Virus record (IMG/VR): IMGVR_UViG_3300010392_000661 | Location: 1-36,518 of that record | Source of the DNA: a virus | Length of the DNA stretch: 36,518 bases | Strand: one strand, 5' to 3' | Shown here: positions 4,764 through 31,107 of the stretch, in pieces | Position numbering within the stretch: the first letter of the stretch is position 1 | Layout of the letters: every line of letters begins with the position of its first letter | Position numbers and translations under genes: made by a program | The notes under the pieces: generated by a model | The model's database searches: none | What the model was told of the DNA's origin: nothing | Seen by the model: only the letters and a program-made list of their open reading frames with translations

Positions 4764-4799
4764 CAAAGATACCACGCTAAATGTAAACAATGAAAAAAG
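4764..4799 (-). promoter_or_regulatory. Late-class promoter CTTTTTT-N21-TATCTTTG
   Basis: Read on the minus strand, TATCTTTG lies at 4771-4764 and CTTTTTT at 4799-4793, with exactly 21 nt between. TATCTTTG fits the Bacteroidota -7 consensus TAnnTTTG. The T-run is also the U-tract of the terminator ending the 2852-aa gene. The start site would be near 4757, giving a 27-nt leader for the 163-aa gene. Confidence 0.75.
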
Positions 4800-4822
4800 C
4801 CATGCTTTTTTAGCACGGCTTT
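4793..4822 (-). terminator. Rho-independent terminator after the 2852-aa gene
   Basis: A 10-bp inverted repeat (4797-4806 with 4812-4821, one G-U pair on the minus strand, 5-nt loop) is followed on the minus strand by TTTTTT. It sits about 15 nt past the stop of the giant ejection protein and runs directly into the next promoter. Confidence 0.85.
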
Positions 4823-4837
4823 GGGTGTAGTTTTCTG

Positions 4838-7800
4838 TTACTCAACTTCCTCTGCGTCTCGATCCTTTTTCACAGGATGGTCGTATGAGTAGTCATATAC
4901 GTTCGCCTTGGCTGCTTTCTGAATCTTTAACCAACGCGACTTCATTTCATTAACAAACTCTTCGTCTTTCAACCCGTCTTCACGCAATTCTACTACAGCT
5001 TCTTTGAAGTTCTGTCCTAATTCACGCTCATAGCTATTGAACATCTCGACTTCTTTCTTGTCACGTGTGTTCAGATCACGCCTTACTGTCCGTCCTGTCT
5101 TGTCTTCTAATATAAATTTGGTATCACCCATAGTCACCGCAGGACGGTAATACCCTTGGTTGATATAGTACTGAACGTTTTTATCTTTCTTCGCAATATC
5201 CACTAATTGACTTATAGATAGCTTTGTCGGAACTGGCTCACCGAACACATCGTAAGCTATTCTACCTCTGTCTAAATCAATAAATGGTATATACTGTAAA
5301 GCACGGGCAATCGCTGTCTCTGGATTATCTTTTGGTTCTTCCCCTATAACATCAAATAAATCCTTCATGTCTTTTACTGCTTTTGGAGATACAAACCCTG
5401 TTGCCATTCCTCCTGCCGTCTGAGATAGCTTTTTGAGTAATTTTTCCTCTTTGCCTGTCATAAAATCGCCAACCATCTCGAACATCTTATTAATAGTGTA
5501 TATAGGGGTTGTTTTAATGACGTGTCCTATGGTTACGAAATTACCAAGTGCATATAACTCTAAATCATTCATGTCCGTATCAGTGTATTTGCGCTTGTCT
5601 CTCATATATCCTATTGGCATTAGTATCATAGACATCCCTCCGAGCGTTCTATAGTCAAAACTAAACGTGCCGATCTGTATAGAATACGGACGCCACCCCT
5701 GTTTCTCTAATTGCTTGTTCTTTTGATAATCACCTGTTCCGTTAAGCGTTATTTTTATAAATGAGTCCCCGTCGTCATCTGGCTGTGTGAGCATATATAA
5801 CACCGAGTGAATTATCCCCACTTTTAGAATCTTCTGCCACGCAGCCTGTTTCTCCTCTTTTGTCATATCGACATAATACGGATTATCCTTTTTCATCCAC
5901 AGTCCGTAATTCCCTTTGTACGCCCGTATCGCACCTATATACATATTCCACCCTAAATTCCTAACAGAGACGTTGGCCACAATTCTAGTAAAGGCTATTA
6001 CCAGAGACACAGGCCGTATCGTAACCTTAGATGTTTGGTTAAAGCGCAGCCTTGGAATACCCCTTTGCATAACAATTTCTGGCTTCCCGATAGTAAACTG
6101 ACGATTTCTTAGCCACCTAGAAACACCATCCACTATTGACCCAATAGTTCCGTAAGCCTTTATGTTGCCGATAGCCCTGCCCGCAAGGTCAAACGCATCG
6201 TCGGATATATCAAGTCCTCTTTCTTGGTCAATTAACTCAAACACGCGAAGGTTCTTCTCTCTCTGATTATACCCGGTGGGCTCCTCTCCGAATTCCTTTT
6301 GTGTATCCTTGTAATCATCCGACTCTTGCTCAACTTCCTTGCGAATACGATTCATAGATGCCTCGTCTACATATAATTTTTCATCTAATTGTGACCGTAG
6401 TGTTCTTTTTTCATCTCTATTCAGTTTTCTGCCCTTTTGTTCCTCTAGCATAGCCCTTATTCGCTTGGCCGTCAATACATCAGCAAAGGCTTCTTTCGCA
6501 CCTGCGTATAGCATTGCGTCAAACGCTGCTAGTGCCCTAGGAACGTACTTAAATAAATTCTTGTACGTATTCATTACGGCTGCAATTATCTTAGCAGATC
6601 GCTTTTCACTTGCTGGCTCGGCATTTATTCTTTCAAGTATGGATGGTATCTCTAGTTTTTTAGCCAACGGAGTAAAGCCCGTTGTCCATGTCTCCATAAA
6701 CCTTTGCACACCCTCTTGTCTCGTGCCGCGTATGTGTGCGCGTATTGCTCTCGCAATATACCGCACATTCCATCCGGCCATATTCAACGGCTCCATATAA
6801 GACGATATAAACGCGTCAGAAATATTCCTTCCGTGCGTTGCTACTCCCGAAAGAACGTGCGCATACCAAAAACCGGTCATCACTTCGGCCATGTTCACGC
6901 CCTTTAATTCTAAGATATACGCCATGAGCTTCTGTTCTTCCTTATGCTTGACGTCGGCACTCTTGATCTTCTGTATCTTTTTACCCTGTTTTATTATTGT
7001 TTGTTTCTGTTCTTCTGTCAGGCTCGGCACACCGTACATCTCCTCAAATAACGCATCAAATTCAGGTGTTTCCAATGCACCTATATTAACCAACTCGATC
7101 AACTCTGCTACAGGATTCTTTTTCGCACCGCCCTTTTTCTTGACTGTTTTGTTTTTGATATACTTTTTAACCAACGCCTCGCCCTTCTGTGTCATTAACG
7201 TCTGAAAAGCATGGTCGATAACATCAGCCAACTCAGTAGCGGCTTCTTCCGTTAGTCCAGATTTCTTCACAAGGTCGTCGATCAACTCTTTCTTGTGTAA
7301 ATCCCTTCGTTCGTAATGGTCGCGTACTACATCATCAATAGATATATCTCTTTCTTTAAGGGACTCTCTTATTAATTGCTGCACACGGCGCTCGGATACA
7401 GAAAAAGTAGTAGCCTTCTTATAAGAGTCTTCTACACGTTGCTTATAGACCTCCGCTTGTTTCTCGGTTATCTTTTCATCAGCAACCAACTTATCAATCA
7501 AATCCATTGCCTCTTGACGTGCCTCTTTCCACACTTCCATGTAGTCAGTCTTGTTCAAGATGGCTTCCGTAATAACATCCATATTACTACGCGGTGCGGG
7601 TCTGTTGCCCTCTTTTGCTCTTTCCCTAAATTTAGACACAAGTGTTTTTACCATTTGTGCTATCGGGTCAGTCTTTGGCGCACGGCGATCAGCTACATAT
7701 CCAAATTCTTCCTGTGCAAGTCTCTCCGCTGCTTCGGCAAGTACCTGCTCTTTTTCCAGCTCCTCTGCCTTTTTACCCTCTATTTCGGGGATCATGGACT

Positions 7801-10800
7801 TGGCTTCGGTGTCGGTTATCTCAAACCCTGCTTTGTTGAATTCCTTTTTAAGTTTCTGTATTAATTCTTTTACGTTAATAACTCCTAATTCTATATACTT
7901 ACCAACGATTTTAGTTCCTATCTCTATTTGTTCGCTATTTAGTCCACCTGTAGTAAGAGTTGTCCCTCTTGTCGCACGAAGCATATCCGTTAATTCAGAT
8001 ATCTCTGCTTTTAGTTTTACCTTCCGCGGGTCGGCTGCTGTTTTCCGTACTGCTTTCTTCTTAGCTGCTTGTACTCTTTTTTGCTTACCGACTACTTTCA
8101 GCACCTTCGGACGTACCTTTTGTAATTCGTCCTGTATAACTTCTTTTGTTTTCTTGTACCCACGCGACTTCCTAACTTTGTCAGCCTCGTCTTCCATTGC
8201 CTTTTCAACCTGACGCGCTGTTTTATATGGAGTCAGTCTTTCGGTCACGAATTCCGCTGCAAAGAACTGAACATCTCTACCTGATTCTATAGCAAGGTCT
8301 TTCTGAATGGTCTTCATTATATCCTTTTCTTTGGCTATGAATCTATCACCCTCTACGGTATTCCCCTCTCTAAGTGCGCTTTCTGCTGACTGCGAATAAC
8401 TGTCTGCTAACAATAACCCCAACGCAACCCTCACGCGCCTCGGCAGGTCAGGATTCCTAAACAGATCGTCCACTTCCTCGATAGGATTCATTTTAAATAT
8501 TGACTCCGCTATCTGAACAACCTCTTTGTTAGACTCTGGCACGTATTCATGTAAATCTTCTTCCCGGTACTGTCTTTTTGATTCCTCTGAGAATCCTTCA
8601 CCAAAAGCATATCGCACACCGAACTTAGAAGACTCCATTTCATCGCCTACTTTCTTGTCGCCTTTCTTTTGTGTGGTTTTTGCCCCGTCGCCTTCACGCA
8701 CACCGCCCACGGGTTTACCTTTTTCTTTTTTCCTCTCTGTTGGCTTTTTACCTTCGCCACGCACCTCTTTAGCTTCTTCGGCATAACCTCTTTGTTTTAA
8801 TACATTGTCAGATTGCTCTGTCTTAATAGGAAGTTTTAATTCCTTTATCTTTGCCTCTAATAATTCACGCGGGTTAACACCTCTTTGCTCGGCAGCGTCA
8901 ACCACGGTGTTCATCCACTGTTCGGGTGTAATCGCACCCTGAAACTTGGCATCCACTTGAAAGGCTATATTGTCAGCCATGTCGGATATATCGTTATCAG
9001 ATATACCCTTCTTGTCGACTTCTGTTTTCTTCTTACTTGGTCGCACCACGCCCTCTCCAAGCATCGCATCGTACACGCGCCTCATCTCATCGTTCAACTC
9101 AATGTCAATCTCGCTACCTGTTATTCCGTTGTAGATATCTGTAAGCCACTCCTTAAATCTCCTAAACACACCTTCTAATGCTTTAGTCGGCGCCACGCCC
9201 TCGGCGAAGTACTTCTCAGACCCCCTTGCAAACTTCTCGCTTGTCTCCGTGTTCCACTCTTTCTGTTTTGTCCATTTCAATACAGCGTCACGCTCGGATT
9301 TTGTCATGTACTTCTCGTACACGTGGGCAATCTCGTGTAGCGGTGTGGACACATTCGGGTCGGTTAACGCATGGATAATAGTATTGCCGTTGGCTAGGGT
9401 CTGCATTGCGCCCTTTGCGCCCTGTGGTACGGTACGGTCTTTCTGAAACTTAATATGGTCTTCTATTTCTGCTATATTTTCATCGAAGATTACGTAGTTA
9501 AAACTTTCTTCATGTGTTCCTTTTCTTGTTATTTCTGTTGGGTATTTTATTCCGTCAATACCTGCGCGGAGTAAAAATAGAGAAGATTCTTTAGGACTTG
9601 GGAACACCGTATTCAACCCCATATATGCTATTTTGCCATCGGTTATATTCCAATTTATCTTCGGCAATGTCACTCCCTCTTTTTCTGCTTGTGCAAAAAT
9701 CTTGTCCCTCTGTTCCTTTGTAATGCTCTTGTCCCACCTCAAGTAGTTAAAGTCATCTATCGCACGTTCTCCGTGGAGTTTTACTTTGTAAATATTCCTA
9801 TGTGGTTGATTTCTTGAATGATCTAATAGCCTCTTCCTTGTGCCCTCCCAGCTTTCTATAAAATAATCTGCCGTTACACCACCTTTTTTTCTTAATCTAT
9901 TTATTTTTTCATCAACTGTATCATTTATTTTTTGTTCTCTTTCCTCCCTGTTCATATTCGACACACGAATAACATCATCCATTTCATATGCCTTTCCGTA
10001 CAGCAATTCGGCTATATGATACATTCCAGCCCCTTCCTGAGATGTCATTCCCGAATATGCTTCCGCAATCCCCTTCTTATCAGTAAAATATAATCCCCAT
10101 CCAAACGCCTGTGCTCCTTCTCCTGTGCCTATCTTGTCTAATGTGAATTTATCAAACGTATGAGGACTACCATGCCATACTGCTTGATATAGACTTTGTG
10201 CTTCTTTACCCAACTGTTCGGGTGTGGTCTTCTTATATTCAAGACTATCGTATATACGCTTTTTACTCTTACCTGTACGCTTGCTTATCTTGCCTATAAT
10301 TCTATCCGTTATAATAGCCTGTGCTAATGCTTGCACACGGTTTAATCCGAATACTTCGCGCCCTGCCTTATAAACATCACGCAAATTCTTAGGCTTGATT
10401 CCTGTTGCTTTCTCAATCTTCTCTTCAACTTGCTTACCAAGAGCCTTCGCCTGTTCCTCGGTAACCACCTCCGTAGCCTCCTTCTCTATCTCACGCTCTC
10501 TCTCGGCAGACCTTACCATCGTTTTCTTAAACTCTTCTATGGATGCTGTTTGTCGAGCATACCCCGCTGCCACTGTTGCAGTAAAAGATACTTCATTCTT
10601 GTCAAACGCTTCCTTCAACGAGTACATAAGGGTTTCACGCGCCACTGACTCCTTGTTGTTTTTAATATCACGGATGGCTTGGGTAATTTGTACCTTAGTT
10701 AATCCACCCACGTCCACGCCGATCAGATTCACCTCGTCCGATATCACGTCTTTCACGAAGTCCTCAAATGAGCCTTTTTCAGCCGCTTTCTCCTTCGGTG

Positions 10801-13396
10801 GTGGAAATACACCTTTGCCGGGAGATGTTGGCTCTGATGGCTTCTGCGGGGCCGTGGCGGGCTTGTCATGTGTGTACGTATCTCTCCTGATAGAAGACAA
10901 GAACTCATTTTGGGATGGGGCAATCATCATAACAGACGAGTTTTCTTTCCTTCTGTCCTTTGTTTCTTGCAAAGATTGTTCCTTGCCGCTTTCATCAAAA
11001 GACCTAAACCCCATCTTGTAATGTAAGTCAACAGAACCATCGTTGCTAACTTGTGATACCAAGTTATCTCCATGCTCCATGATAGCACTCCCAAGCAACT
11101 TAGTGGCTACCCCCTTCCTTCTTTTCTCTCTTGGCACTTCAAGCTCTACCACAGAATACCTGCCACCTTCCTTTATCTGTCCTATACTTAACACACCCCC
11201 TGATAGAGAAAAATTTGTTCTGTCGTTAAAGTTTCCCTTTGGTGGTTTTTCTCTCTTTACGTCGGGAAGGCCTTTTTCAACTACCTCCGCTTCGCCTGCC
11301 TCTGCCGCTTCTTCTGCTGCTTTTGTATCTCCTTTTGCCTCTTTCTCACGTCCCTTGGTAACTTTGTCTTCGGGTTCTGTGATGTCGTCTTTCTCTTGCA
11401 CCTTTGACTCTTGCACTTTTTTGCCATCTTCTTTTTCTTTTAAAGTTGTTTTTTCACTCGGGACTTCCTCTTTCTGGATAGCCTCGTCTGTTACAGCCTT
11501 GTCTTCTTCTGACTTGGCTTTGTTATAAATCTTTTCTAATTGTTCTGCATTTGTACCATCGGGTACTTTTATACCTTTTTCTTGTAGGTATTTAAGCTGG
11601 TCTGTCATATTTAACACACCCTCGACCTCGCCAATGGTCATTTCGCCATCTTTCACCACGGCGTTCTCGTCAGTTATTTCCGACACAGATTGTGACACCC
11701 TGTGATTCATGTACGCCATTGCATTTGCAGTGGTGGTTGCGGGGTCTTCACCCAACTCCTGTGTGTCAATTCTATCACTTATCGCATCAGCTACCATTCC
11801 ATACTGCTGATCGAGCGTTAAATCCTTATTGCTTGTTATTACGTCTATCTCTGCACGTAAATCACTTGGAATATATTTCTCTAATCTTTTAACCCTCGCT
11901 TTTCGCCTTGTTTCTGCTAAAGAGTTTCCCGCCACGGCAACCGACCCCATGAATCCAGTCATGGAAGCCACCGACCCCATCATTATCTTATTCTGCTTTT
12001 TGTCGGTAAAGCCTTCCCAGAACCCCTTAAAACTATCATAATCTTTAGGTGCGGTGATTATCTCTCCTACCTTTTCTTCTGCTGTTTCTTCGAGAACGTT
12101 CTTTAATACACCCACGCCACCTTTGTCGATATTGAAGTTGATACCCATGCGCTGCATGATTGCATTAGTTGTGTTCCCTGACATTCCCTTAACGGGGTTA
12201 CGCATGAATACTCTTTCTGATAGGGTTTCTGCGCCAGTTTCCCAATAGGAATCCAACACGGCTTCACCGAAATTCATACCATTGGACACGTTCTCTGCTG
12301 TCTTTTTGTAAAACGATGGCATAGCTGCCGTTTGCACACCCGCCTGTGCGAGTTTAACCGCCGTACCCACACCAACTTTACCAACAGCTTTCTTCATGCC
12401 AACCTTGGCTGCTTGTTTTAACGCAACCTTGCCCGCTGCGGCTGCTGCACCACCCGTTAACACAAATTCACCCATAAACCCAAGTGACGTGCCAACTGCT
12501 TCACCCATCTTGTATTTGTCGGGTATTTGGTCGTCAAGTTTTTCGTGCATCTCTGCGTTTTCGACAACAGCTTTTAGTAGTAATTTATCGTCTGTTGATA
12601 ATTTAACATCCTCACCCTGCTCAATGCGGTCAATCTTACCCATTAAGTCAACAACGGCTTTGTTTCCTTTCAGGGTAGATGTTAATTCTCCATAGTCTCT
12701 CACGTAGTCTTCCACGCCCTTGCCAATACCCTCAAAAAAACCTTGCTCGGTTGCAACTTCCAAGTCCCCTGTGTCTTGGAATAGCTGTCTAGACGCCATG
12801 GTAGCGTCGTTGTCAGTTTCGGAAACGTACTCGTTCCACTCTTTGCTGTAAACAGGTACGGGTGACGGAGTTGGAGTTGTCACTTGCTCCTGCTGTCTAA
12901 CCGCCATCTCAAGATTAGCAACCTGCTCGGATACGTCGTCTATGTTCCTTGAATCTAAGTTTGGTAATATCTTTTTTATTTCGGCTGCCTCTATCTGTGC
13001 TTGTGGAAACTTCTTTAAGGCCTCTACCCTTCTTTTAATATCATTAGCTTCCACAAGGAATTCAGTAGGTCTTTCGGCCTGTGACGCAGATTTGCCAACC
13101 TCTTCATAAAAAGAAAGAGACACACCGCTTTCGTCGGCAATCTCCATATCCTCTTTTTTATCGAATAGTCCCATGTAATTCACGGGTTGCTTTTCTTCTG
13201 CTTGGAATGATAATTCTTCGGACACACGCGGCTCAAATTCAGCACGGCGTTCCATTTCCTCTTGGGTCAGGAATTCTTGGTCAGGTGTAGAAACAAGAGT
13301 AGACTCTACTTTTTTTTTATCAACAGGAACAGAATCATCCCATGTGGGCGTAAGTGCCACGCTGTCCTCCCATTTCGGTATCTGTTCTACTGCCAT
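4838..13396 (-). CDS. Giant polyvalent ejection protein (GNAT + ART + zincin), 2852 aa
   Basis: Domains seen in order: an acidic N-terminus; a Gly/Ala-rich hydrophobic segment near residues 296-352; a Lys/Glu low-complexity linker (about 610-710); a GNAT acetyltransferase at about 715-800 with motif A R759-K-K-type RxxGxA (R759, G762, A764); an ADP-ribosyltransferase of the ART-PolyVal type at about 1068-1312 (W1074-H1075-G-S-P, GWGLYF with Y1103, terminal YVIFDEN); a zincin metallopeptidase with H1354-E-I-A-H1358 and a downstream E1387/E1394 region; long charged helical linkers; and a large C-terminal helical region starting near 2176 (WYAHVLSG, THGRN) as in other polyvalent proteins. The start overlaps the 556-aa gene by 10 nt. 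It is last in an order matching T7 gp14-15-16, so it is probably packaged and injected with the DNA; gp16 is about half its length. Domain calls rest on recognised motifs; packaging and targets are inference. No lytic transglycosylase motif was seen. Confidence 0.88.
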   Translation of the reverse strand: MAVEQIPKWEDSVALTPTWDDSVPVDKKKVESTLVSTPDQEFLTQEEMERRAEFEPRVSEELSFQAEEKQPVNYMGLFDKKEDMEIADESGVSLSFYEEVGKSASQAERPTEFLVEANDIKRRVEALKKFPQAQIEAAEIKKILPNLDSRNIDDVSEQVANLEMAVRQQEQVTTPTPSPVPVYSKEWNEYVSETDNDATMASRQLFQDTGDLEVATEQGFFEGIGKGVEDYVRDYGELTSTLKGNKAVVDLMGKIDRIEQGEDVKLSTDDKLLLKAVVENAEMHEKLDDQIPDKYKMGEAVGTSLGFMGEFVLTGGAAAAAGKVALKQAAKVGMKKAVGKVGVGTAVKLAQAGVQTAAMPSFYKKTAENVSNGMNFGEAVLDSYWETGAETLSERVFMRNPVKGMSGNTTNAIMQRMGINFNIDKGGVGVLKNVLEETAEEKVGEIITAPKDYDSFKGFWEGFTDKKQNKIMMGSVASMTGFMGSVAVAGNSLAETRRKARVKRLEKYIPSDLRAEIDVITSNKDLTLDQQYGMVADAISDRIDTQELGEDPATTTANAMAYMNHRVSQSVSEITDENAVVKDGEMTIGEVEGVLNMTDQLKYLQEKGIKVPDGTNAEQLEKIYNKAKSEEDKAVTDEAIQKEEVPSEKTTLKEKEDGKKVQESKVQEKDDITEPEDKVTKGREKEAKGDTKAAEEAAEAGEAEVVEKGLPDVKREKPPKGNFNDRTNFSLSGGVLSIGQIKEGGRYSVVELEVPREKRRKGVATKLLGSAIMEHGDNLVSQVSNDGSVDLHYKMGFRSFDESGKEQSLQETKDRRKENSSVMMIAPSQNEFLSSIRRDTYTHDKPATAPQKPSEPTSPGKGVFPPPKEKAAEKGSFEDFVKDVISDEVNLIGVDVGGLTKVQITQAIRDIKNNKESVARETLMYSLKEAFDKNEVSFTATVAAGYARQTASIEEFKKTMVRSAEREREIEKEATEVVTEEQAKALGKQVEEKIEKATGIKPKNLRDVYKAGREVFGLNRVQALAQAIITDRIIGKISKRTGKSKKRIYDSLEYKKTTPEQLGKEAQSLYQAVWHGSPHTFDKFTLDKIGTGEGAQAFGWGLYFTDKKGIAEAYSGMTSQEGAGMYHIAELLYGKAYEMDDVIRVSNMNREEREQKINDTVDEKINRLRKKGGVTADYFIESWEGTRKRLLDHSRNQPHRNIYKVKLHGERAIDDFNYLRWDKSITKEQRDKIFAQAEKEGVTLPKINWNITDGKIAYMGLNTVFPSPKESSLFLLRAGIDGIKYPTEITRKGTHEESFNYVIFDENIAEIEDHIKFQKDRTVPQGAKGAMQTLANGNTIIHALTDPNVSTPLHEIAHVYEKYMTKSERDAVLKWTKQKEWNTETSEKFARGSEKYFAEGVAPTKALEGVFRRFKEWLTDIYNGITGSEIDIELNDEMRRVYDAMLGEGVVRPSKKKTEVDKKGISDNDISDMADNIAFQVDAKFQGAITPEQWMNTVVDAAEQRGVNPRELLEAKIKELKLPIKTEQSDNVLKQRGYAEEAKEVRGEGKKPTERKKEKGKPVGGVREGDGAKTTQKKGDKKVGDEMESSKFGVRYAFGEGFSEESKRQYREEDLHEYVPESNKEVVQIAESIFKMNPIEEVDDLFRNPDLPRRVRVALGLLLADSYSQSAESALREGNTVEGDRFIAKEKDIMKTIQKDLAIESGRDVQFFAAEFVTERLTPYKTARQVEKAMEDEADKVRKSRGYKKTKEVIQDELQKVRPKVLKVVGKQKRVQAAKKKAVRKTAADPRKVKLKAEISELTDMLRATRGTTLTTGGLNSEQIEIGTKIVGKYIELGVINVKELIQKLKKEFNKAGFEITDTEAKSMIPEIEGKKAEELEKEQVLAEAAERLAQEEFGYVADRRAPKTDPIAQMVKTLVSKFRERAKEGNRPAPRSNMDVITEAILNKTDYMEVWKEARQEAMDLIDKLVADEKITEKQAEVYKQRVEDSYKKATTFSVSERRVQQLIRESLKERDISIDDVVRDHYERRDLHKKELIDDLVKKSGLTEEAATELADVIDHAFQTLMTQKGEALVKKYIKNKTVKKKGGAKKNPVAELIELVNIGALETPEFDALFEEMYGVPSLTEEQKQTIIKQGKKIQKIKSADVKHKEEQKLMAYILELKGVNMAEVMTGFWYAHVLSGVATHGRNISDAFISSYMEPLNMAGWNVRYIARAIRAHIRGTRQEGVQRFMETWTTGFTPLAKKLEIPSILERINAEPASEKRSAKIIAAVMNTYKNLFKYVPRALAAFDAMLYAGAKEAFADVLTAKRIRAMLEEQKGRKLNRDEKRTLRSQLDEKLYVDEASMNRIRKEVEQESDDYKDTQKEFGEEPTGYNQREKNLRVFELIDQERGLDISDDAFDLAGRAIGNIKAYGTIGSIVDGVSRWLRNRQFTIGKPEIVMQRGIPRLRFNQTSKVTIRPVSLVIAFTRIVANVSVRNLGWNMYIGAIRAYKGNYGLWMKKDNPYYVDMTKEEKQAAWQKILKVGIIHSVLYMLTQPDDDGDSFIKITLNGTGDYQKNKQLEKQGWRPYSIQIGTFSFDYRTLGGMSMILMPIGYMRDKRKYTDTDMNDLELYALGNFVTIGHVIKTTPIYTINKMFEMVGDFMTGKEEKLLKKLSQTAGGMATGFVSPKAVKDMKDLFDVIGEEPKDNPETAIARALQYIPFIDLDRGRIAYDVFGEPVPTKLSISQLVDIAKKDKNVQYYINQGYYRPAVTMGDTKFILEDKTGRTVRRDLNTRDKKEVEMFNSYERELGQNFKEAVVELREDGLKDEEFVNEMKSRWLKIQKAAKANVYDYSYDHPVKKDRDAEEVE

Positions 13397-15878: not shown

Positions 15879-15886
15879 CAAAATTA
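15879..15886 (-). promoter_or_regulatory. Possible weak promoter before the ejection-protein block
   Basis: TAATTTTG on the minus strand fits TAnnTTTG and lies in the 28-nt gap between the 1123-aa gene and the 267-aa gene, about 16 nt before the ATG. Neither the CTTTTTT-N21 nor the TTG-N20 upstream element is present; only CTTTT at a slightly different spacing is seen. In AT-rich DNA this may be chance. Confidence 0.3.
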
Positions 15887-15891
15887 TCAAA

Positions 15892-18800
15892 TTACTTGTT
15901 TATAGTAAAAGAAGCCGTTACAAGCCGCAGCTGCGCCTCTGTTACTCCGTTGTCGTTAAGCTCTATTTCGATGTACTTCCCTACAATATCATTATTCGCG
16001 TGGATTTGGTTTATATCCTCACCACCGACTATCAATATATTCTTAAACACCGCGCTCGTAAAACTACCGTCCCTTTCCCTATATGTGCCGGGATACAAAT
16101 ACGTCTTCTGTCCCAGTGTATTAGTTACAGTAACGGGTGTTGTTATAATTGTATTAAACGCCCTGTTTGAGTCCATTTCAAGCGCCCTGAGACACTTTTC
16201 TTCTCTTGGCTCTACATTCACCACTCCCTTCACAGAAGCTATCTTAGACTCCCCGTAAAAGCTGTTGTACGAGCTATTGTCTTCATGCTTCCACACGCTG
16301 TCAAACCCAAACGACAAACTCTGTTCTGCTAGGTTTCCATACAAATCTGCGCTGTTATCGCTTTTTGTCCAATCAATTTCCTGTGTCCACCCGTCTGCGC
16401 CCTCTTTAAACACCCATGTCTCCACTGCACCGCGTATGTCAAATGTAATTACATACTCATCGTTTCTTATATCATATAAGGCTATAATATCCACCGAGCT
16501 ACTATCGACAAGCAACGCATCGTCAATGTCGTCTTTTATTCTTAGAAACTCTGACTTCATGCCATACTCTGATATAGGATGTATCCCGTTAGGAGAGCTT
16601 CTGACTACTTCTCCGTGGTCGTTATCCCAATAGTACAGGTTTCTGTTATACCGCACGATTGACTGTGGGTACGATGACCCATAATCGGTTTGGCTTGGGT
16701 ACACTGTTCCGATAAAGTCATTTGATTTGACAACTTGCAGGTTTCCCCGTGCGTCCGATATCTGTGCTTTTCCAACATATAGAGATGTTTCTTTGTCAAC
16801 TTGGATAACCTTTATCACATCGCCAACCAAGCGTATTCGCTGTATTTCCCCACTCTTTTCGTCGAGCTGTTTTCTGTTTAATGAATTAAACGTGGATATT
16901 CCATTAATCTTTGTGTTGTCGAGATAATTAAAGCTCCATACAACGTCCTGTAGGCGAATCTGTCCAAGTGTATCAAATTCAACAACAGCCCTTCCTTTTG
17001 AATATGCACGTATCGCGTCGTCTACGTTTATATAAAAATCTTCAACTACCTTTGTTATGCTTCCGATAACGGTATCCCACTCGAATTCTCTTTCCACATA
17101 CCAAGCGTCCTCACCGCCCACATATCCCGATAATGTTTGCATAACACCGCCGGTAATATCATAAGTATTAGAATCCTCGAAGTAAACCAAGTCTTCGACG
17201 GTATTCTTGAGTCTATATATATACATAAGGGCGTCGGTGTAGTCAGCGACTATCTCTGTTCCGGCAGGAACTATTAGCCAGAATCCAGAGTATTCAGTAC
17301 TTCCTATGGTAAGAAGAGTCCGTGTGCCTATTATGTTTTTAACAATAGTTTTTGTTATATCAGTTGGCGTAGCTGGATCGTCTAATACTTCAAAATGCAG
17401 GTAGTCACCTTTGGTAAACTCGTATTGAAGGTTAGTGGGCATATTTATAGCCAAAACCTTTTGTCCGTCTAACCAAAGTTGTTTCACGTCATCAGTGTCT
17501 CCCGAAACAAACGGGAATACGCCTGTAAAGTTTACCGATTCGGTAACCGCAAACCTATATTTTGTAGCCCAGCTCGGAACGCCCACTGATCCGTCAGGAA
17601 TAGTAAACGCTATCCTCGCACGATCAAAGGCGTCTGCAAACGCTCTCTCTCCCGCATGGGGTACATAAACAGATTGCGAAGAAAGTACTCCCGATGTCCT
17701 ACTAAAATCGTCATAAAAAAGCACTCCTACGTTATAATAACTTCCGCCCTTAAATGTGCTTACACCTGTCGGCAGCGTTTCTTCGGACGCCGTACTTACT
17801 AGGATGTCAACATACGACCCTGCTCCACCGCCCTCTCCGTCGTCTCCCGAATCGTCCCATACGGGTGTAAACGAAATAGCAACGTAATTCGACGTGAGTC
17901 CTGTAGACCCATAAACCAGATACCCGCTTCCTGCCACATAAGTGCCGTAATCAGTCTCTATTATAGATATTCCTTTAGTATTAATATCATATATGAACGC
18001 GTTCTGAACGTCAACCAAGCTGTCGCCCGCGTTAACCGTATAAGAGAACTCATACCTCCACCTAAACCGATAGCTCGCTGCGCCGATAAACTGCTCATAC
18101 CTTCCTGACAAACTTACTGAAATAACCGTATCGGCAACGGGTGGGCTGGGAATCTCAAATTCCACATAATAATCTCCTGTCGGGTCGCCGGGGTCGTCTA
18201 TCCCGCTATTCACGTTCAGCGCATTACTGCTTCCGCTTACATCAACGTCTTCATATTCTACTGCGTACTCCACAATAGGAGATGTTTTATCATATCCCTT
18301 TAACACATTCCCCAACACAATCCTGTTCTCTACTGTCTCTACGGTTTTTGCAAGCAACGGAACATCGCTATACAGAGCCAACGCCTCTGTCTCTACAAGC
18401 CCCTGTCTCGCCACGTCATTAAAAAACGAATACGTCCTTGTGCCGCCTGAACCGCCTGTGTCGTACTCCTCTACAACAAACCAGTTCCCGCTGTTTCCCT
18501 CTCTTGCGATAAGTTTTACAGTCCTTACCTCGTCGTTCCCTAAACCATACTCTACCTGAACATAGTTACCAACGGCATTGTCAATGTACGTATTGTCTTT
18601 CGCATCAAACACCGCACTCGACACCACAATATCAGAATAGGGCGATAATACAGAATAAGTATAATCATTGTATATGTAAAAATAAGCAAACTGAAATGTC
18701 TTGCCAACTAATTTATTAACCACCTTTGTCGCATCGCTGCCTAAAACAGTAGCAGGTTTCGTGCTTGGCGGTCTGACCGCTAGCTGAATGTCAAATGCGT

Positions 18801-21336: not shown

Positions 21337-21372
21337 CAAAGATACACACGAAAATCTTTTACATGAAAAAAG
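21337..21372 (-). promoter_or_regulatory. Late-class promoter CTTTTTT-N21-TATCTTTG
   Basis: On the minus strand TATCTTTG is at 21344-21337 and CTTTTTT at 21372-21366, 21 nt apart. The T-run overlaps the terminator of the 340-aa gene. The predicted start site is near 21330, which yields a short leader for the 228-aa gene and opens the roughly 16.5-kb tail/ejection unit. Confidence 0.75.
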
Positions 21373-22464: not shown

Positions 22465-22492
22465 AAAAAGAGTGGGGGACTAAGCCCCCACT
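22465..22492 (-). terminator. Terminator/attenuator after the signal-peptide gene
   Basis: A perfect 8-bp inverted repeat (22471-22478 with 22485-22492, 6-nt loop) is followed on the minus strand by CTTTTT. It starts 4 nt past the stop of the 161-aa gene. With no promoter visible downstream, it probably lets part of the capsid transcript through to the 340-aa gene. Confidence 0.85.
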
Positions 22493-22495
22493 TTA

Positions 22496-22996: not shown

Positions 22997-23001
22997 ATTA
23001 T

Positions 23002-24462: not shown

Positions 24463-25548
24463 TTATCCCAAAATGCGAGACATCTTTTCGTCGTTGCTGA
24501 TCTCCTCCTTACCCGGACGAGTATCTTCACTAAGCGGCTTGTCGTTGTGAATCTCTTTGCGTGTTTCCGATTTCACTTGCTCAGCTAAATCAGCCTTCAC
24601 GCTTTTGATTACTTTGTCGATGTTTTTTAATAGTATTTGGTCTTTTATCATCCCTGCTAATTCCGCACCCGCTTCCTCGCTTGGCGCAATCTGCTTGGAC
24701 ATTACCCAATTCAGAGTGCTTTCTGTAAGCCCGTCTTTCATCTCATCGGTAACAACGAAGTCCACGCCCTCGTCCAACTGTATCTTGTCAATGCTTTTGA
24801 TTAATTCTGGAATAGGTTTCTCCCAAGACTCTTTCAACTGCGTCCTTGCAGTCTCGTAATCTGTTTTGCTCGGAACCTCTATCCCATCGTACAGCTTCGA
24901 TACTTCTCTCTTAGCATCAATAGCATCGACCTTGATTGTAGTTTTCACACCGTCCTCAATATCATCAGTACCGAACTCCGAAATGTCGTACTTATGTAAA
25001 AGGTAATCTTTCGCGTCCTTGCTACTTAACCCCTTATCAACCATAAGCTGTGTTGTCAACGCATCGACATCTGACAAATTATCAATCTCACTTGGAGTTA
25101 AAACAGACAGAGCCTTGATTGCATCCTTGCTCAAATTATCTCCCTGTTTTATTAACAACTGCTGCCTTTTATACTCGTCCTCGTTTAAGAAGTTTGACAT
25201 AGGGTCTAACTTCTCTGTCAGGGATTGGTATTCTGTCAGCTTTTGCGCTGTCTCCTCGTAAGATGATTTTGTCTCATCGTACTTCTCAGCCTTTTCAAAC
25301 AACGTACTAAAAGCGTCTTCGCTTTCAAATTCTTTTCCAAATTTCTTATTAAATGCCGCAAGATCAAACTTTACTTCTTCTTCGGTTTTTTCTTGCACTG
25401 TCTCTTTTTCGGCATCTTTTGTTTCTTTTATTTCTTCTTTCTGTGTCTCTGCGGGTTTTTCTTCCTCTTTGGGCGCCATCCCCGCCGACTCTAAGTCACC
25501 ACGCATAACGGCGTCTTTCTCCTCGTTAGATAATTTCCTGCCTTCCAT
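24463..25548 (-). CDS. Scaffold-like protein, 361 aa
   Basis: Very rich in Glu, Lys, Asp and Ala, low in aromatic residues, and predicted helical with a coiled-coil stretch at about 85-115 (FEKAEKYDETKSSYEETAQKL). The first 55 residues are almost wholly charged low complexity (EEKPAETQKEEIKETKDAEKE). The C-terminus is charged (GKEEISNDEKMSRILG), as in scaffolds whose last helix binds the capsid protein. It lies directly between portal and capsid genes, the classical scaffold position. The leader has AAACGAAGAAA two nt before the ATG, and a late-class promoter lies just upstream. No protease motif was seen. Confidence 0.75.
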   Translation of the reverse strand: MEGRKLSNEEKDAVMRGDLESAGMAPKEEEKPAETQKEEIKETKDAEKETVQEKTEEEVKFDLAAFNKKFGKEFESEDAFSTLFEKAEKYDETKSSYEETAQKLTEYQSLTEKLDPMSNFLNEDEYKRQQLLIKQGDNLSKDAIKALSVLTPSEIDNLSDVDALTTQLMVDKGLSSKDAKDYLLHKYDISEFGTDDIEDGVKTTIKVDAIDAKREVSKLYDGIEVPSKTDYETARTQLKESWEKPIPELIKSIDKIQLDEGVDFVVTDEMKDGLTESTLNWVMSKQIAPSEEAGAELAGMIKDQILLKNIDKVIKSVKADLAEQVKSETRKEIHNDKPLSEDTRPGKEEISNDEKMSRILG

Positions 25549-25569: not shown

Positions 25570-25605
25570 CAAAAATATGTTAATATTTTCTTTTTGCTAA
25601 AAAAG
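25570..25605 (-). promoter_or_regulatory. Late-class promoter CTTTTTT-N21-TATTTTTG
   Basis: On the minus strand TATTTTTG is at 25577-25570 and CTTTTTT at 25605-25599, exactly 21 nt apart. No terminator hairpin adjoins the T-run here, which argues that the T-run is itself a promoter element. It drives the scaffold-capsid-161-aa transcript with a leader of about 15 nt. Confidence 0.7.
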
Positions 25606-25607
25606 GT

Positions 25608-27998
25608 CTAAATGCCGCCCTGCCCCGCAGGAAGCAGTCTGTCCTCTTTTTCTTCAATTTGCTGTTGTTCTGCCTGTTGTGGCGGTGCTTGTGGCGGTTG
25701 CTGAATTCCCATCATTGCCAACGCCTCTACCGCAGTCATTTCGTTGTTGCTTACCGCTTGTTCTAATATTGAGTTTCTGCCCTTAATGTTTTCTTTCGCC
25801 AATTCAGCCTCAGTCTCCATTGCCACCTCTTGCTGTTTCTGTTGCGCTTTCTGTTGCTCAAGCATCTGAGTGCCTTGGATGTTTTCTTGCTGCAATCTTG
25901 ACGCCTTAGCCTCTGCTTCCTCTTGTGCTTTTTGGTGTGCAAAGTCAAGTAACAATGCTATTCTCTTATAGCTCTCGCCCGACTCCATCATTTGCTTAAA
26001 TCGCATATAATCAGCTTCGGTAATTCCTACTTTACCATCACGCCCGTTCTTTAGAGACAATGCCAACATTTCTTCCAACGCTCTCTTCTCTTCGTAGGTT
26101 GGTCGTGCGTGTGTCCGAATTCCATACGTCGCATCGTGTCCCTGAGCTATTTTAAGCGTCTCTAAGCGAGTTTCGCCTACGATCTGCTTATATGTGTCGT
26201 AAGCTCTTTTATCGGCGTGTACGACGTGTGACAGCCTCAGACAAGCTGCTCGTGCTACATTTGATTTAAGTATATTGGCTCTTCTTAATACTCCCTTTAA
26301 GATGTCATTCGTACCCATGATGGCAAACTCAGTAACAGCTTTGCCAACTTCGGGAGTAGGTTGAGCGCCCATTGACACAGGGTTAATTCCTGTCAACTCT
26401 TCTATCTGTCGCATGGCTACATCCATTACCTGCAATGCTTCGTTGATAACCGCACCCGCACCACCCTGTAGTTGCTCGATTGGTCTAACCTGTCCCATAT
26501 TCGGTCTACCGGCGACATCGGTTGGTTTAAAGAATAGGTTACCTGTTTGCCTCCAAATCCTAAGTACTTCTTTCGGGTGTAGCTTCTCGTCACCCATTTT
26601 AAGATTAGAAACCGCATCCATATTAATAGCGTAACCATTCATGGCTGCCATTGATAGTCCCTGTTGTAGCTTCATCCACCCGTTCATGTACTGATCGAGC
26701 GAAGGAATTAATCTAGGAACAATAGGTCTGTTGGTTACCTGTACCATGTGAATAGGAAGAACAGGCTCGTTCTTTCCGTCTCGTGCTTGGAACTCACTTT
26801 TACCGTAATCATAAACAATATCAGACCCTATAATCCAATGTACCTGACGTATCATTTTCACGCGAGTCTCAATCTCTTTCTCGCCTTTCTTGAATTTGTA
26901 GTTATTCTTAACAGGCTTGGTTCTTGCCTTGCCTTGACGGTTCTTGTATTGTTTTTCTGTTTTAAAGTCAACGTCCTTCCAATAAACTACAAACACGGGA
27001 ACAATCCATTTGTCCAGCGTGCTGTAATAAATATTCGCAGGGACTTTGTTTTGTTTGTTCCAATCCTCGAAACTTGGATTGCCGTATTGACTTGCGTATG
27101 TTTTTGCCAGTTCCTCTAATCTTTCCACCGGGATGCCCTTTTTGGCTAAGTCAGATATTTTAGTCATATCTACGTAAAACCCGTAATCAGGATTGTTATT
27201 AGAGTCTTGCCTTGAATACTGTACACCCGTGTACTCAGCATCTAAGTATTTCACCTTGACCTGTCCGGTGTACTTATCATACTCGTCCATGACAGCCGCG
27301 TATCCCAAAGTAACAACATCCCTCAGCACCATCTCCACCGTCTGTTCCTCCCATGTGGACTGCTCAAAGACATATTTCAACAGAGACTCCATTGTTTCCT
27401 CATAGCCAAGTTTAAATCCCCCCTCGGCTTCATAAAGATTCAATTCCTCTACGTTTTTCGGTGTATATGCCTTCTCTCCTGTGGGTATTGCAGCGAGAAG
27501 TTTTAGGGAGTCCATTTGCTCTTTATATTTCCCGTCAACATAAGCACCCCACTTCATATTCTCTTTCTCCGCACCCGAGTATTCATCAGTAGCATCTACC
27601 GACACGCGGTTAACCAACTCGACAAGTTTATTAACTATCGAATCCATTACGCGTGGCATGGGAGACTGAATGGTGAAATTTAGGTTAGCATACGCTTTTC
27701 TACGAGCGTAACGAGAATTATTCCTATTAGCTAAACTCTCAAGGGTGTTGTTGTCCGACTCTTTCCCATAGAACGAATCCTCGTAAATACTTTGGTCTTG
27801 GAGTCCGAGTGCGTACTCCCTGTTCCTACGTACGCTGGTATAATAGTCGTGTGATATAAACGTAGACCCCTTGGCAAACAGCCGATAAGTATACTGAGCT
27901 ACCTGTAAATTATACTCTTCGGAGTCTTTGTTTATACTTTTGTCTTCTTTGTCAGGCGCGTGATAATCGCCATCCTTATACTTGTCTGCCAATATCAT
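25608..27998 (-). CDS. Portal protein, 796 aa
   Basis: Gene order (after the large terminase, before scaffold and capsid) and size point to the portal. The N-terminal half contains YTSVRRNREYALG and a helical region with SPMPRVMDSIVNKLVELV; the middle is mixed with KVKYLDAEYTGVQYS. Residues from about 683 on are a Gln/Glu/Ala-rich coiled coil ending in a PPQAPPQQ tract. The frame is open further upstream to a GTG at 28031, but the -7 promoter element (28018-28025) lies between the two, so transcription would begin after that codon. The ATG at 27998 is therefore chosen, with a leader of about 13 nt. It would form the dodecameric DNA gate at one capsid vertex. Confidence 0.82.
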   Translation of the reverse strand: MILADKYKDGDYHAPDKEDKSINKDSEEYNLQVAQYTYRLFAKGSTFISHDYYTSVRRNREYALGLQDQSIYEDSFYGKESDNNTLESLANRNNSRYARRKAYANLNFTIQSPMPRVMDSIVNKLVELVNRVSVDATDEYSGAEKENMKWGAYVDGKYKEQMDSLKLLAAIPTGEKAYTPKNVEELNLYEAEGGFKLGYEETMESLLKYVFEQSTWEEQTVEMVLRDVVTLGYAAVMDEYDKYTGQVKVKYLDAEYTGVQYSRQDSNNNPDYGFYVDMTKISDLAKKGIPVERLEELAKTYASQYGNPSFEDWNKQNKVPANIYYSTLDKWIVPVFVVYWKDVDFKTEKQYKNRQGKARTKPVKNNYKFKKGEKEIETRVKMIRQVHWIIGSDIVYDYGKSEFQARDGKNEPVLPIHMVQVTNRPIVPRLIPSLDQYMNGWMKLQQGLSMAAMNGYAINMDAVSNLKMGDEKLHPKEVLRIWRQTGNLFFKPTDVAGRPNMGQVRPIEQLQGGAGAVINEALQVMDVAMRQIEELTGINPVSMGAQPTPEVGKAVTEFAIMGTNDILKGVLRRANILKSNVARAACLRLSHVVHADKRAYDTYKQIVGETRLETLKIAQGHDATYGIRTHARPTYEEKRALEEMLALSLKNGRDGKVGITEADYMRFKQMMESGESYKRIALLLDFAHQKAQEEAEAKASRLQQENIQGTQMLEQQKAQQKQQEVAMETEAELAKENIKGRNSILEQAVSNNEMTAVEALAMMGIQQPPQAPPQQAEQQQIEEKEDRLLPAGQGGI

Positions 27999-28017
27999 CT
28001 CGTATCTTTTATTTATA

Positions 28018-28053
28018 CAAAGATAACACACCTAAAAACAAACAGTAAAAAAG
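28018..28053 (-). promoter_or_regulatory. Late-class promoter CTTTTTT-N21-TATCTTTG
   Basis: On the minus strand TATCTTTG is at 28025-28018 and CTTTTTT at 28053-28047, 21 nt apart. It fills the gap between the terminase stop and the portal start. No convincing terminator stem precedes the T-run. It fixes the portal start at 27998. Confidence 0.72.
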
Positions 28054-28058
28054 GGGTG

Positions 28059-30356
28059 TTACACAAAATCACTTATGTCATAATCGTCATTCTGTATTCG
28101 CATCAAATCCTGCACATACGTACTCTTCGCCCCCATCAAAGACATACCACCAGCAGCAATTAGGTCAAAGTGTCTCATCTGCTCAATGCCCCTAATGGTC
28201 TTTAATTCGTTTAGTATATCCATGTGCTGTTCTTTGTGAATCCTGTTCTCCACGTAATCCCTCCATAAACTAAACAACTCCTGCTTTGACCTCTCTAGTG
28301 AGTCACACCCCGGCTTCTCTTTTAGCTTGTTCGTGTATTTGTCCTTGTCATACAATAGATATCCCCCAAAATTGTGCCTTATAAAATACTCATACGTTGT
28401 CCTAATATTAGTTTCAGGGTACACCATTGCCCCGAAATATATAGCGGCTTTTAGTACTTCTTCATTATACTCGTCTGTGTTGGCAGTCCTGTGCCTATAA
28501 GAGTGAACGAACCTATATGACTCCCACTCGGTTATCGGTTTGCCTTCGTCAAGCTCTGGGTCAAAATTCCATAATATTGTTATACCACCATCAGATAATC
28601 TACTACTTTTTTGCAGTGCCTTGCCGACCTTCTCGTCCTGTTTGTTCCCAAATCTAAACGGGTCTGATCCTAAAGTGAACATACCGGGATACATCGGTCT
28701 CCACATGGGGACGTTTTTTTGCTCAAACGTACTAAAGTGCATCACCTGTGATTTCTTATTCGACACAGAGTCAAGTGGGCGCTTGGATATAATATGCTTG
28801 CCGTTTTCGTCATCTATCTTGGAATACACGTCGCCACCAAATTCTTGCTTCCAGTACAGATTAACCCTTAATACATCGTTATTTCGTCTAAGATTGGTGA
28901 CCTGCATGTCTATCTTCTCCATATTAAACCCAATATCACCGCTTTCGCCAAGCCAACAATCCGCGTACTTCATTGGAAACAGCTTTTTCTCCTGCCTAAG
29001 AAGCCTTGTGGACTCGGCGCTTCCGTCCTTAATATAAGCATCCCTCTTTGCGTTAATTGCGTCTGTGGCTGTCTCCTTAAATCCCTCTTTGGACTGATCT
29101 TTTGTGATTTCGCCCTTGACACTATTTCCGTATGAGTCAATATATTTATCATTACCGTCGTCGGCAGATAAAAACAGCCTAAATAAACCAGAGTATGTCT
29201 GACCAGACGGAAGTCTCCTGTAAAAATTAGACGTATTGGATAGCGCCCTGTAGTATGCAGCCCCGTCGGACGTTTCCGACACGGTGCTCGGATAAGAACA
29301 ATACCCGTGTAACAAGCTCCCCGCCTGTGATAGTGTATGCTTCGTCACCTCGTGTCGTTCTGCCACATCAACCTCATCGGTCTTCCCGGCTTCTTCGATC
29401 AACAGGTACATCATCTTTTTCGAGTCGTAAAACTTCTCATTCGCTGTCGTGGCGTATGTCACCTGCGTTTGCAGAGATGGCTCTCCGTACTCGTTCTTAC
29501 CAACATTAAACTTCAATGAATCAGATGTTCTTCCTGATGTCGTGTTTGGTTTTACCCATATAGGATAGGCGTCAAAGGCGGGCATGAGTAAATTATCAAA
29601 TGTCTCCTTTGCGTTCTGATTGGAAAACGACTGAATACCGCCACCATGATTTAAGGCATTTCTCATAACTATTTCTAGCATATTAGATATAGCCTTGTTG
29701 GTGTTTCCTGACCTCCTGTGCTTTGGTTGCATTTTGCCAAAACACACACGATCTACAGTGTCAGTCATCTTATAAGTCCCATTATCTTCTCTTATGGCGT
29801 ATCCTTCCTCGTCTATCCTTGCAAATGTCTCTGTTGACTCCATGCAGTACTTCTCAAATACGTACTCACGCCTGTCCCTGTCCCTGTACGACGGTCTATT
29901 AGTGCCGTCTTTAGTGTTCATGGTGTGTAGGTTCAGGTAGAAGAAATGCTGTCCTGTAAGATAGGTTGGTTTCCCGTTTATGAATATCCAATAACCGTTT
30001 AGTCTGTGCCACCAAAACCTCCTTATAAACGCTATCTCCTTCCTCATCGTCTTGTGCCTACTATACAATAGCTCCCAAAACGTCTTTTGAATTTTAAGTA
30101 GGGTTATAACGTTATTCCTATTACTAGAAAGATATTCTTTGGTTTTAGCCACCGCCTCCTTCTCCAAGTCTGCTAACTTCCTAGGAATAACCAATCTCCG
30201 AAAACGCTGTTCCTCTGGCGGTAATCCGTATCCGTCTATCAAGTGAAGTGCCGGTGGCCTTGGTAGACTCAGTATAACTGATTGCAGGTCGGGATCATTG
30301 TCGTTTACAACAATAAACTTATCTGCCTCTTCGTATTTATGCTTTGTCTGGGTCAT
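28059..30356 (-). CDS. terL: Terminase large subunit, 765 aa
   Basis: Packaging ATPase and nuclease. The N-terminal region has the aromatic segment GYWIFINGKPTYLTGQHFF near residues 115-140, as in large terminases of Bacteroidota phages including crAss-like ones. The ATPase shows a deviant Walker A (about 211-221, KHRRSGNTNK, two Arg before the loop, no GKT) and a Walker B-like LLIEEAG near 317-324. The RNase H-like nuclease begins at LGSDPFRF with catalytic D565, and a later acidic block is DEYNEEVLKAA. The start overlaps the 238-aa gene by 20 nt. At 765 aa it is longer than typical terminases because of the N-terminal extension. Motif residues are read from the sequence; the family link is from knowledge. 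Confidence 0.88.
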   Translation of the reverse strand: MTQTKHKYEEADKFIVVNDNDPDLQSVILSLPRPPALHLIDGYGLPPEEQRFRRLVIPRKLADLEKEAVAKTKEYLSSNRNNVITLLKIQKTFWELLYSRHKTMRKEIAFIRRFWWHRLNGYWIFINGKPTYLTGQHFFYLNLHTMNTKDGTNRPSYRDRDRREYVFEKYCMESTETFARIDEEGYAIREDNGTYKMTDTVDRVCFGKMQPKHRRSGNTNKAISNMLEIVMRNALNHGGGIQSFSNQNAKETFDNLLMPAFDAYPIWVKPNTTSGRTSDSLKFNVGKNEYGEPSLQTQVTYATTANEKFYDSKKMMYLLIEEAGKTDEVDVAERHEVTKHTLSQAGSLLHGYCSYPSTVSETSDGAAYYRALSNTSNFYRRLPSGQTYSGLFRLFLSADDGNDKYIDSYGNSVKGEITKDQSKEGFKETATDAINAKRDAYIKDGSAESTRLLRQEKKLFPMKYADCWLGESGDIGFNMEKIDMQVTNLRRNNDVLRVNLYWKQEFGGDVYSKIDDENGKHIISKRPLDSVSNKKSQVMHFSTFEQKNVPMWRPMYPGMFTLGSDPFRFGNKQDEKVGKALQKSSRLSDGGITILWNFDPELDEGKPITEWESYRFVHSYRHRTANTDEYNEEVLKAAIYFGAMVYPETNIRTTYEYFIRHNFGGYLLYDKDKYTNKLKEKPGCDSLERSKQELFSLWRDYVENRIHKEQHMDILNELKTIRGIEQMRHFDLIAAGGMSLMGAKSTYVQDLMRIQNDDYDISDFV

Positions 30357-31053
30357 CGCCTAGAAACCTTATTTTATCCACTACATATCCCACAGTGTAA
30401 GGAGAGTCACCACGAAGGTCACCGTTGTCTGCCAACGCCCTTGCATAATCTTCTGGACGTATCGCTAGCCTAGAAGTTTCGATGTGATGATAAAAACGAG
30501 ACACAAATTCCTCTGTCTCATCAAACGTTCTGCCTATCTCGTTAGATATCTTATAATAGTCGTCATATAGCTTCATGTAGTCTTGCGACGACTTGTGTTT
30601 GGTTATTTTTCTACCCACTGAGTCACGCGTCAATGCCAACATCGACTCATGCAAGAACACTAAGTAGTTCCACTTTGCCTTGTTGATCCACCCTAAAAAC
30701 TCAATTATCATGTCGTTAATAGGGGTTATCTTGCCCATAACCATTTCATCCACACGCTTGTCAAAACGAAAGTATCCGTCGTTTGCCTTTTTTAGCTTAA
30801 ACCCTGCATATCCACAGGCTTCATATTTCTTCGCAAACCATTCGAGTTGCTGCATGTTGGCTATCTCCGAGTTCGGGTCATACATTAATAGTATATACCG
30901 ATACACCATGCTTTTAGTAAACACTATGTCTTGGTATTCTACGTTGGCTTTCTTGAGTGCGGGAATGTTTTTCTCCATAAACGACACCAATCGTGGGCTT
31001 TTTGGATTTAGCAACATTTTATCGCAGTCAATGTTCTTGAGATCGAATTCCAT
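30337..31053 (-). CDS. Hypothetical protein upstream of terminase, 238 aa
   Basis: Family not recognised. The protein is largely helical, with many Lys, Asp, Tyr and Met residues, and contains QQLEWFAKKYEACGYAGF and FLGWINKAKWNYLVFLHES. The ATG at 31053 is chosen over an upstream GTG at 31155, because the terminator (31100-31126) and promoter (31072-31107) lie between them. The leader carries AAACGAAGAAA three nt before the ATG. It overlaps terL by 20 nt. Small-terminase genes often sit here, so that is the leading positional guess, but no DNA-binding helix-turn-helix is obvious. Confidence 0.75.
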   Translation of the reverse strand: MEFDLKNIDCDKMLLNPKSPRLVSFMEKNIPALKKANVEYQDIVFTKSMVYRYILLMYDPNSEIANMQQLEWFAKKYEACGYAGFKLKKANDGYFRFDKRVDEMVMGKITPINDMIIEFLGWINKAKWNYLVFLHESMLALTRDSVGRKITKHKSSQDYMKLYDDYYKISNEIGRTFDETEEFVSRFYHHIETSRLAIRPEDYARALADNGDLRGDSPYTVGYVVDKIRFLGDDPDKA

Positions 31054-31071
31054 TTGTTTCTTCGTTTGCCA

Positions 31072-31107
31072 CAAAGGTAACACATACGATTTTATGTATA
31101 AAAAAAG
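31072..31107 (-). promoter_or_regulatory. Late-class promoter CTTTTTT-N21-TACCTTTG
   Basis: On the minus strand TACCTTTG is at 31079-31072 and CTTTTTT at 31107-31101, 21 nt apart. The T-run is the U-tract of the terminator closing the co-chaperonin operon. It opens the terminase unit with a leader of about 12 nt. Confidence 0.75.

Follow-up and report, generated by a model that had tools for sequence, protein, structure and literature searches.

Proposed late promoters in the window

A run of T's precedes the -7 box of several virion transcription units in this phage, always at the same distance, and the locus raises the question of whether these sites represent a dedicated class of late promoter, a by-product of the terminators of the preceding genes or ordinary promoters of the host. 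The window analyzed here is a 36.5-kb IMG/VR virus fragment (record IMGVR_UViG_3300010392_000661, 36,518 nt), an incomplete genome from which part of the early region is absent. The minus-strand genes follow the order SSB/GroES middle genes, 238-aa ORF, TerL, portal, scaffold-like ORF and capsid, and continue through virion proteins, muzzle, a giant 2852-aa protein and small ORFs to an ORF of at least 1050 aa. The left end carries 163-, 171- and 196-aa ORFs, followed by this last ORF, which is open at the window edge. The principal late genes are as follows.

30337-31053, minus strand: 238-aa ORF, directly before the TerL unit
28059..30356, minus strand: TerL, 765 aa, matching phrog_6681
25608..27998, minus strand: portal, matching phrog_6547
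24463-25548, minus strand: scaffold-like ORF
23002-24429, minus strand: major capsid ORF
20631-21317, minus strand: virion protein ORF, 228 aa
15892..19263, minus strand: muzzle-like protein, 1123 aa, with a weak match to Pfam crAss_MUZ_C (Crassvirus muzzle)
15060-15863, minus strand: 267-aa ORF
4838-13396, minus strand: giant protein, 2852 aa

The same gene order occurs in Cellulophaga phi38:1 (Callevirus, Pervagoviridae), in Flavobacterium Elemovirus and in the podovirus MW202828, at ~19-26% protein identity. By the order and homology of its TerL, portal, capsid and muzzle genes, the window is assigned to a crAss-like / Pervagoviridae-like podovirus. A nucleotide search of GenBank phages with the window gave no match.

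The sequence-only reading had reported five minus-strand sites with the architecture CTTTTTT-N21-TAnnTTTG, and a pattern scan recovered all five, exact in motif, spacing and coordinates. No instance beyond these five was found on either strand of the window with spacers of 15-27 nt. Chance accounts poorly for them: in dinucleotide shuffles 0.02 matches are expected, the maximum was 1, and none of 100 shuffles reached five. A sixth, imperfect site was also found, and the six are listed below; the term "late" denotes a class assigned by gene content.

31072..31107, minus strand: late promoter, C(T)7-N20-TACCTTTG, before the 238-aa ORF and TerL
28018..28053, minus strand: late promoter, CTTTTTT-N21-TATCTTTG, ahead of the portal ORF; T-run without a hairpin
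25570..25605, minus strand: late promoter, CTTTTTT-N21-TATTTTTG, before the scaffold-like and capsid ORFs; no hairpin at the T-run
21337..21372, minus strand: late promoter, CTTTTTT-N21-TATCTTTG, before the 228-aa ORF and downstream tail/muzzle genes
15879..15914, minus strand: sixth, imperfect late promoter, CTTCTTTT-N20-TAATTTTG, -7 box at 15879-15886, before the 267-aa ORF (15060-15863)
4764..4799, minus strand: late promoter, CTTTTTT-N21-TATCTTTG, ahead of the tail unit, in which the 163/171/196-aa ORFs are followed by the open ORF (at least 1050 aa)

At every site, a TAnnTTTG box is present a short distance ahead of the start codon. The earlier description of the five sites as preceding most of the virion units holds for the 238-aa/TerL, portal, scaffold/capsid, virion/tail and tail-fibre-side units, and the name "tail fibre" at 4764 is plausible rather than proven.

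The primary sigma factor of the Bacteroidota and its promoters differ from those of E. coli, and Bayley 2000 is reportedly the source of the sigma-ABfr promoter, TTTG / TAnnTTTG. The same form is given in two further accounts (PMC7366714, PMC6847099); in F. johnsoniae the -7 box extends from T-12 to G-5, and the transcript starts 4-5 nt later (PMC6847099). The canonical -33 TTTG had been described as missing from the window sites, and indeed none of the five has it at N19-N21. At N20, the G place is taken by C at 4764 and 21337, by A at 25570 and 28018, and by T at 31072. Since the 31072 site carries seven T's, what all five have in common is a C at -40 and, directly after it, six or more T's. 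In the F. johnsoniae numbering, the C is at position -40, the six T's occupy -39 to -34 and the -7 box spans -12 to -5. A canonical TTTG with a 20-nt spacer would fall at -36 to -33, so that its TTT coincides with the final three T's of the run.

Conservation among related phages

Relatives were collected by protein searches: L006 and L007 (portal 68-70% identical), L091 (57%) and G001 (portal 51%, TerL 53%), the last being an incomplete 53-kb contig with the gene order of the window. Single-protein searches (TerL against viral contigs, portal against genomes) returned nothing, and alignments were needed to reach the relatives. In a scan of these four, the orthologous late promoters hold the T-run register while spacer and flanks diverge. 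At the portal promoter, the CTTTTTT of the window corresponds to CTTTTTC in L006, CTTTTTTT in L007, an exact CTTTTTT-N21 in L091 and TTTTT-N20 in G001. At the scaffold promoter, it corresponds to CTATTTTT-N21 in both L006 and L007 and to an exact CTTTTTT-N21 in L091, and is lost in G001. Counterparts of the 21337 promoter stand before the orthologous gene in L006 (CTTTTTG-N21) and in G001 (CTTTTTTT-N20). Four further late promoters of G001 have CTTTTTTT-N20 in the same register, before the orthologues of the 238-, 228-, 163- and 171-aa ORFs; the counterpart of the 31072 site lies at G001 19124, and that of the 4764 site at G001 45732, before a homologous 165-aa ORF.

When orthologous promoters are aligned, the spacer varies, whereas the -7 box and some of the T-run do not; across the six genomes in the portal-promoter alignment, most of the invariant columns belong to the -7 box or to three T's of the run. 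This pattern bears on the idea that the late promoters are simply duplicates of one ancestral promoter, in which the T-run survives as a neutral relic. Paralogous promoters do share spacer letters (T near -21, AA near -25, TGn), as such descent would lead one to expect, but the spacers and flanks of orthologues have strongly diverged and the T-run and -7 box have not, which makes descent by itself a scarcely credible explanation.

The element is not absolute, given that the T-run is absent from the G001 scaffold promoter and from G001 35479. Three late sites of the relatives show TTTG at N19 or N21, and in L092 (45% identical) the run is shifted by three bases, to N18. In the distant relatives (Callevirus, Elemovirus, L010, L011 and L021) the late TAnnTTTG boxes are kept, but the T-run register is not.

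The late promoters of Elemovirus (L009 24808 and 25647) and of MW202828 (L010 25024 and 25859) have no -33 box. A terminator T-run lies only a few nucleotides (1-6) before the -7 box TATCTTTG at these sites, versus 21 in the window, and the Elemovirus sites have a common TTTCG/TTTTG-TATCTTTG-CAAA context. To judge from this layout, they are a different style of late promoter within the same phage group.

Two observations on coding sequences were made during these comparisons. A stop codon near 1890 breaks the portal frame of L007 (L007:1557-3944), which might reflect an assembly error. The TerL of G001 (L226:1859-5371), at 1170 aa, is interrupted by an intein with Hint and LAGLIDADG homing-endonuclease domains, and the 765-aa TerL of the window has no intein.

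T-runs and terminator hairpins

The T-runs might be nothing other than U-tracts that belong to upstream terminators and lie at similar distances from the -7 box because the genes are compactly packed. Folding gives this idea some substance, in that stems of -12 to -14 kcal/mol end at the T-run at 4764, 21337 and 31072. At 4764 the run doubles as part of the terminator hairpin of the giant 2852-aa gene, and at 21337 and 31072 it is common to the promoter and a terminator hairpin. A stem also ends at the T-run at the L006 connector, the L007 portal and G001 19124, 30134 and 45732 (weakly at 46636).

An intrinsic-terminator stem is thus found upstream of the T-run at three of the five window sites, and is missing at 25570 and 28018 and at six sites of the relatives. 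The two window sites had been singled out as lacking an adjoining hairpin, and folding agrees, with no stem abutting either run. The six sites that keep the register with no abutting stem are the L006 portal and scaffold, the L007 scaffold, both L091 sites and the G001 portal. At the portal site, the hairpin has been gained or lost between relatives and the T-run is unchanged; the hairpin therefore turns over among the relatives while the T-run stays. The terminator T-runs of Elemovirus and L010 also count against packing, as they lie 1-6 nt, and not 21, from the -7 box. The register is conserved across five related genomes, also where hairpins are lacking, and the original contention that the T-run is not a mere by-product of terminators is borne out; the by-product explanation is very unlikely. 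Where a terminator does stand before a late promoter, the two would share the U-tract, and the same T's would serve as promoter element.

A strong inverted repeat, terminator-like on both strands, is located at 22469-22494 of the window, between the 161-aa and 340-aa virion genes. No T-run promoter follows it.

The register in a set of 20 late promoters

A set of 20 late promoters was chosen by the -7 box and by position before a late ORF, and not by the T-run. T occurs in 16-19 of the 20 at each of the five central positions of the run; C precedes the run in 15, and G stands in the -33 G place in none. Upstream of the -7 box, the TGn motif is represented by T in 15/20 and G in 9/20. The tetramer TTTT falls in one register in 16 of the 20, whereas 20,000 random-offset controls averaged 4.5 and never exceeded 9 (p<5e-5). 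The 11 late promoters that have no terminator stem are significant in their own right (p<=1e-4), although these p values overstate independence, since the late sites share ancestry within a genome and across orthologues. Given how far the spacers have diverged, ancestry is unlikely to account fully for the conserved register.

A position weight matrix built from the relatives only, applied to both strands of the window, ranks its six late promoters 1, 2, 3, 4, 6 and 7, the sixth promoter (15879) being at rank 7. Conversely, with a matrix built without G001, six late promoters of G001 fill the top six places in its 53 kb. In neither case did an early or middle promoter attain a comparable score.

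Early and middle promoters, hosts and other phages

For contrast, 20 -7 boxes were taken from the window and G001, each preceding an ORF that does not belong to a late module. The T-run is present in 17/20 late promoters versus 0/20 of this contrast set (p=2.6e-8), some members of which are perhaps not real promoters. TTG occurs exactly at N20 in 8 of the 20 early/middle promoters; at N19-21 it occurs in 9 of them, versus 3/20 late promoters (p=0.08). Examples from the window are given below.

33364..33394, minus strand: middle promoter, TTG-N20-TATCTTTG, before the 76-aa / SSB (DUF3127) / GroES operon
34154..34185, plus strand: early-side promoter, TTTG-N20-TATTTTTG, on the strand opposite to the late genes
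34462..34492, plus strand: early-side promoter, TTG-N20-TACCTTTG, on the strand opposite to the late genes

Three consecutive GroES-like (Cpn10) ORFs of different lengths lie at 31155-32332 (minus strand), upstream of the 238-aa/TerL unit, and GroES-like ORFs are also found in G001.

In 118 Bacteroidota genomes, a T6 not followed by G occurs before TATCTTTG 39 times in this register, compared with 28 and 42 times at two off-register distances; the hosts therefore make no preferential use of the T6-not-G register. An apparent two-fold host enrichment (52 versus 27 for a reversed-pattern control) was dropped in view of the off-register forward controls of 28 and 42. Among the host T-runs at this register, G is the next base in 13 of 52 sites. 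In viral contigs, the spacers between CTTTTTT and TATCTTTG are flat, with 9 of 80 at N21 among the matches listed, and the late model, run over 2.1 Mb of other phage loci, produced only single scattered matches. The T-run class is therefore not widespread in those viral contigs and phage loci.

On these comparisons of sequence, the C(T)6 block keeps a fixed distance from the -7 box, is confined to the late class, differs from the TTG-N20 of early and middle promoters and does not depend on terminators. We estimate a probability of about 0.7 that the sites form a dedicated late promoter class of this crAss-like podovirus lineage, in which a sigma-ABfr -7 box is combined with C(T)6 over the -33 position. 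The sequence-only reading had proposed such a class, and most of what it implied stands: the element appears to be selected, marks the virion units, is absent from early and middle promoters and is not a general host feature. Less settled is its proposal that a modified sigma or a phage activator reads the T-run, which is one of two readings; the other is direct use by host sigma-ABfr.

How the T-run might be read

The promoter would comprise two parts. The first would be the host sigma-ABfr -7 box, TAnnTTTG, at -12 to -5, often with an extended TGn; the second would be C(T)6 at -40 to -34, in which the TTT of the host TTTG is retained and its G replaced. Host RNA polymerase would then transcribe the late genes with its own sigma engaging the -7 box and the T-run supplying an upstream contact. 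The TGn may compensate for the absent -33 G, in the manner of extended -10 elements in E. coli.

These sites could instead be ordinary sigma-ABfr promoters with a degenerate -33 box, in which TTTn at N20 is read by region 4 or through bending of the T-tract and no phage factor is involved; late timing would come from gene dosage or early repression. Direct reading by the host sigma is favoured by the TTT of TTTG, which is kept in register, and by the three sites of relatives with TTTG at N19/N21, which plain sigma-ABfr could use. It also accords with reports that the -33 box is weak in part of the phylum, Flavobacterium having only a poorly defined one (PMC6847099), and that its spacing is variable in B. 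thetaiotaomicron (PMC7366714). Set against this, the G place lacks G in 20/20 late promoters while TTG stands at N20 in 8/20 early/middle ones, and the hosts show no preference for T6-not-G at the register, with G next in 13 of 52 of their T-run sites. Both the ordinary-promoter account as a whole and the narrower proposal of unaided reading, by sigma-ABfr region 4 or through bent T-tract DNA, are realistic, though each is put well below an even chance.

The late-only restriction, the absence from hosts and the constant loss of the G favour the need for a phage middle product or a phage-modified polymerase to use the T-run, to which we give even odds; it is somewhat likelier than reading by unaided sigma-ABfr or a bent T-tract. 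More specifically, and with a little less than even confidence, C(T)6 is predicted to bind either a late regulator encoded by the phage or region 4 of sigma-ABfr after remodelling by the phage; the bound factor would switch host RNA polymerase from TTG-N20 early promoters to the late ones.

Searches of the window and of the early and middle genes of G001, both incomplete genomes, with Pfam and PHROGs found no activator or sigma gene. Matches to HTH/sigma-r4 in L225:1129-1695 were rejected, being weak and situated in a T5orf172-domain protein. The giant proteins of the window and G001 contain no DFDxD-type motif of a virion RNA polymerase. A DUF3127/SSB-like protein (window 32426-32812, minus strand) and a 76-aa protein (33114-33344, minus strand) are also present in the middle operon of G001; as two of the few shared non-structural genes, they are candidate late regulators. 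In the giant 2852-aa protein of the window, residues 1072-1122 give a sub-threshold match to ART-PolyVal (ADP-ribosyltransferase of polyvalent proteins), and its G001 counterpart gives none. The T4 Alt protein is an injected ADP-ribosyltransferase that modifies host RNA polymerase, and by this analogy the match points to the giant protein as a possible partner of phage transcription.

The element would matter in several respects. As a conserved, class-specific feature, it offers a mutable target for late-gene activation in crAss-like phages, makes it possible to predict the late genes and operons of uncultured relatives from their sequence, and provides a handle for finding the phage factor, if any, that redirects sigma-ABfr. 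The architecture may also serve as a stringent sequence signature of this phage lineage. If reading by a late regulator is true, it would represent a sigma-appropriation-like switch in the Bacteroidota.

Comparison with known promoter systems

In the open literature searched, of partial coverage, no T-run late promoter was described for Bacteroidota phages. On the activation of late genes in crAss-like phages, reviews go no further than naming host RNA polymerase as the probable agent. In the cultured crAss-like phages phi14:2 and PhicrAss001, the late structural module is probably read by host RNA polymerase, as is proposed here, and the available parts of the two accounts describe no late promoter element (PMC8375218, PMC10136315). 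Intrinsic terminators overlap with the class in that several T-runs are the U-tract of a stem-loop, but a stem is missing from about half of the conserved sites.

The host sigma-ABfr promoter resembles the T-run class in its identical -7 box, the TTT of the -33 box in register and an AT-rich spacer. The class differs from it in having no G at N20, in being extended to C(T)6, in its occurrence before late phage genes only, and in its fixed 21-nt spacing, the host spacing being reported as variable. The T4 middle promoters (MotA box and sigma-70 -10; PMC2988021) likewise keep a host -10-type element, often with TGn, which occurs in about half of them (PMC2988021), and, to judge from the sequences, appear to share with the T-run class a conserved phage element in place of the upstream sigma box. 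Unlike them, the T-run class has another sequence and position (the MotA box is centred at -30) and serves late rather than middle genes; no AsiA/MotA-like gene was identified, and the class is not counted as a member of the sigma-appropriation systems. On the sequence evidence, it is best described as a class of phage late promoters that builds on sigma-ABfr.
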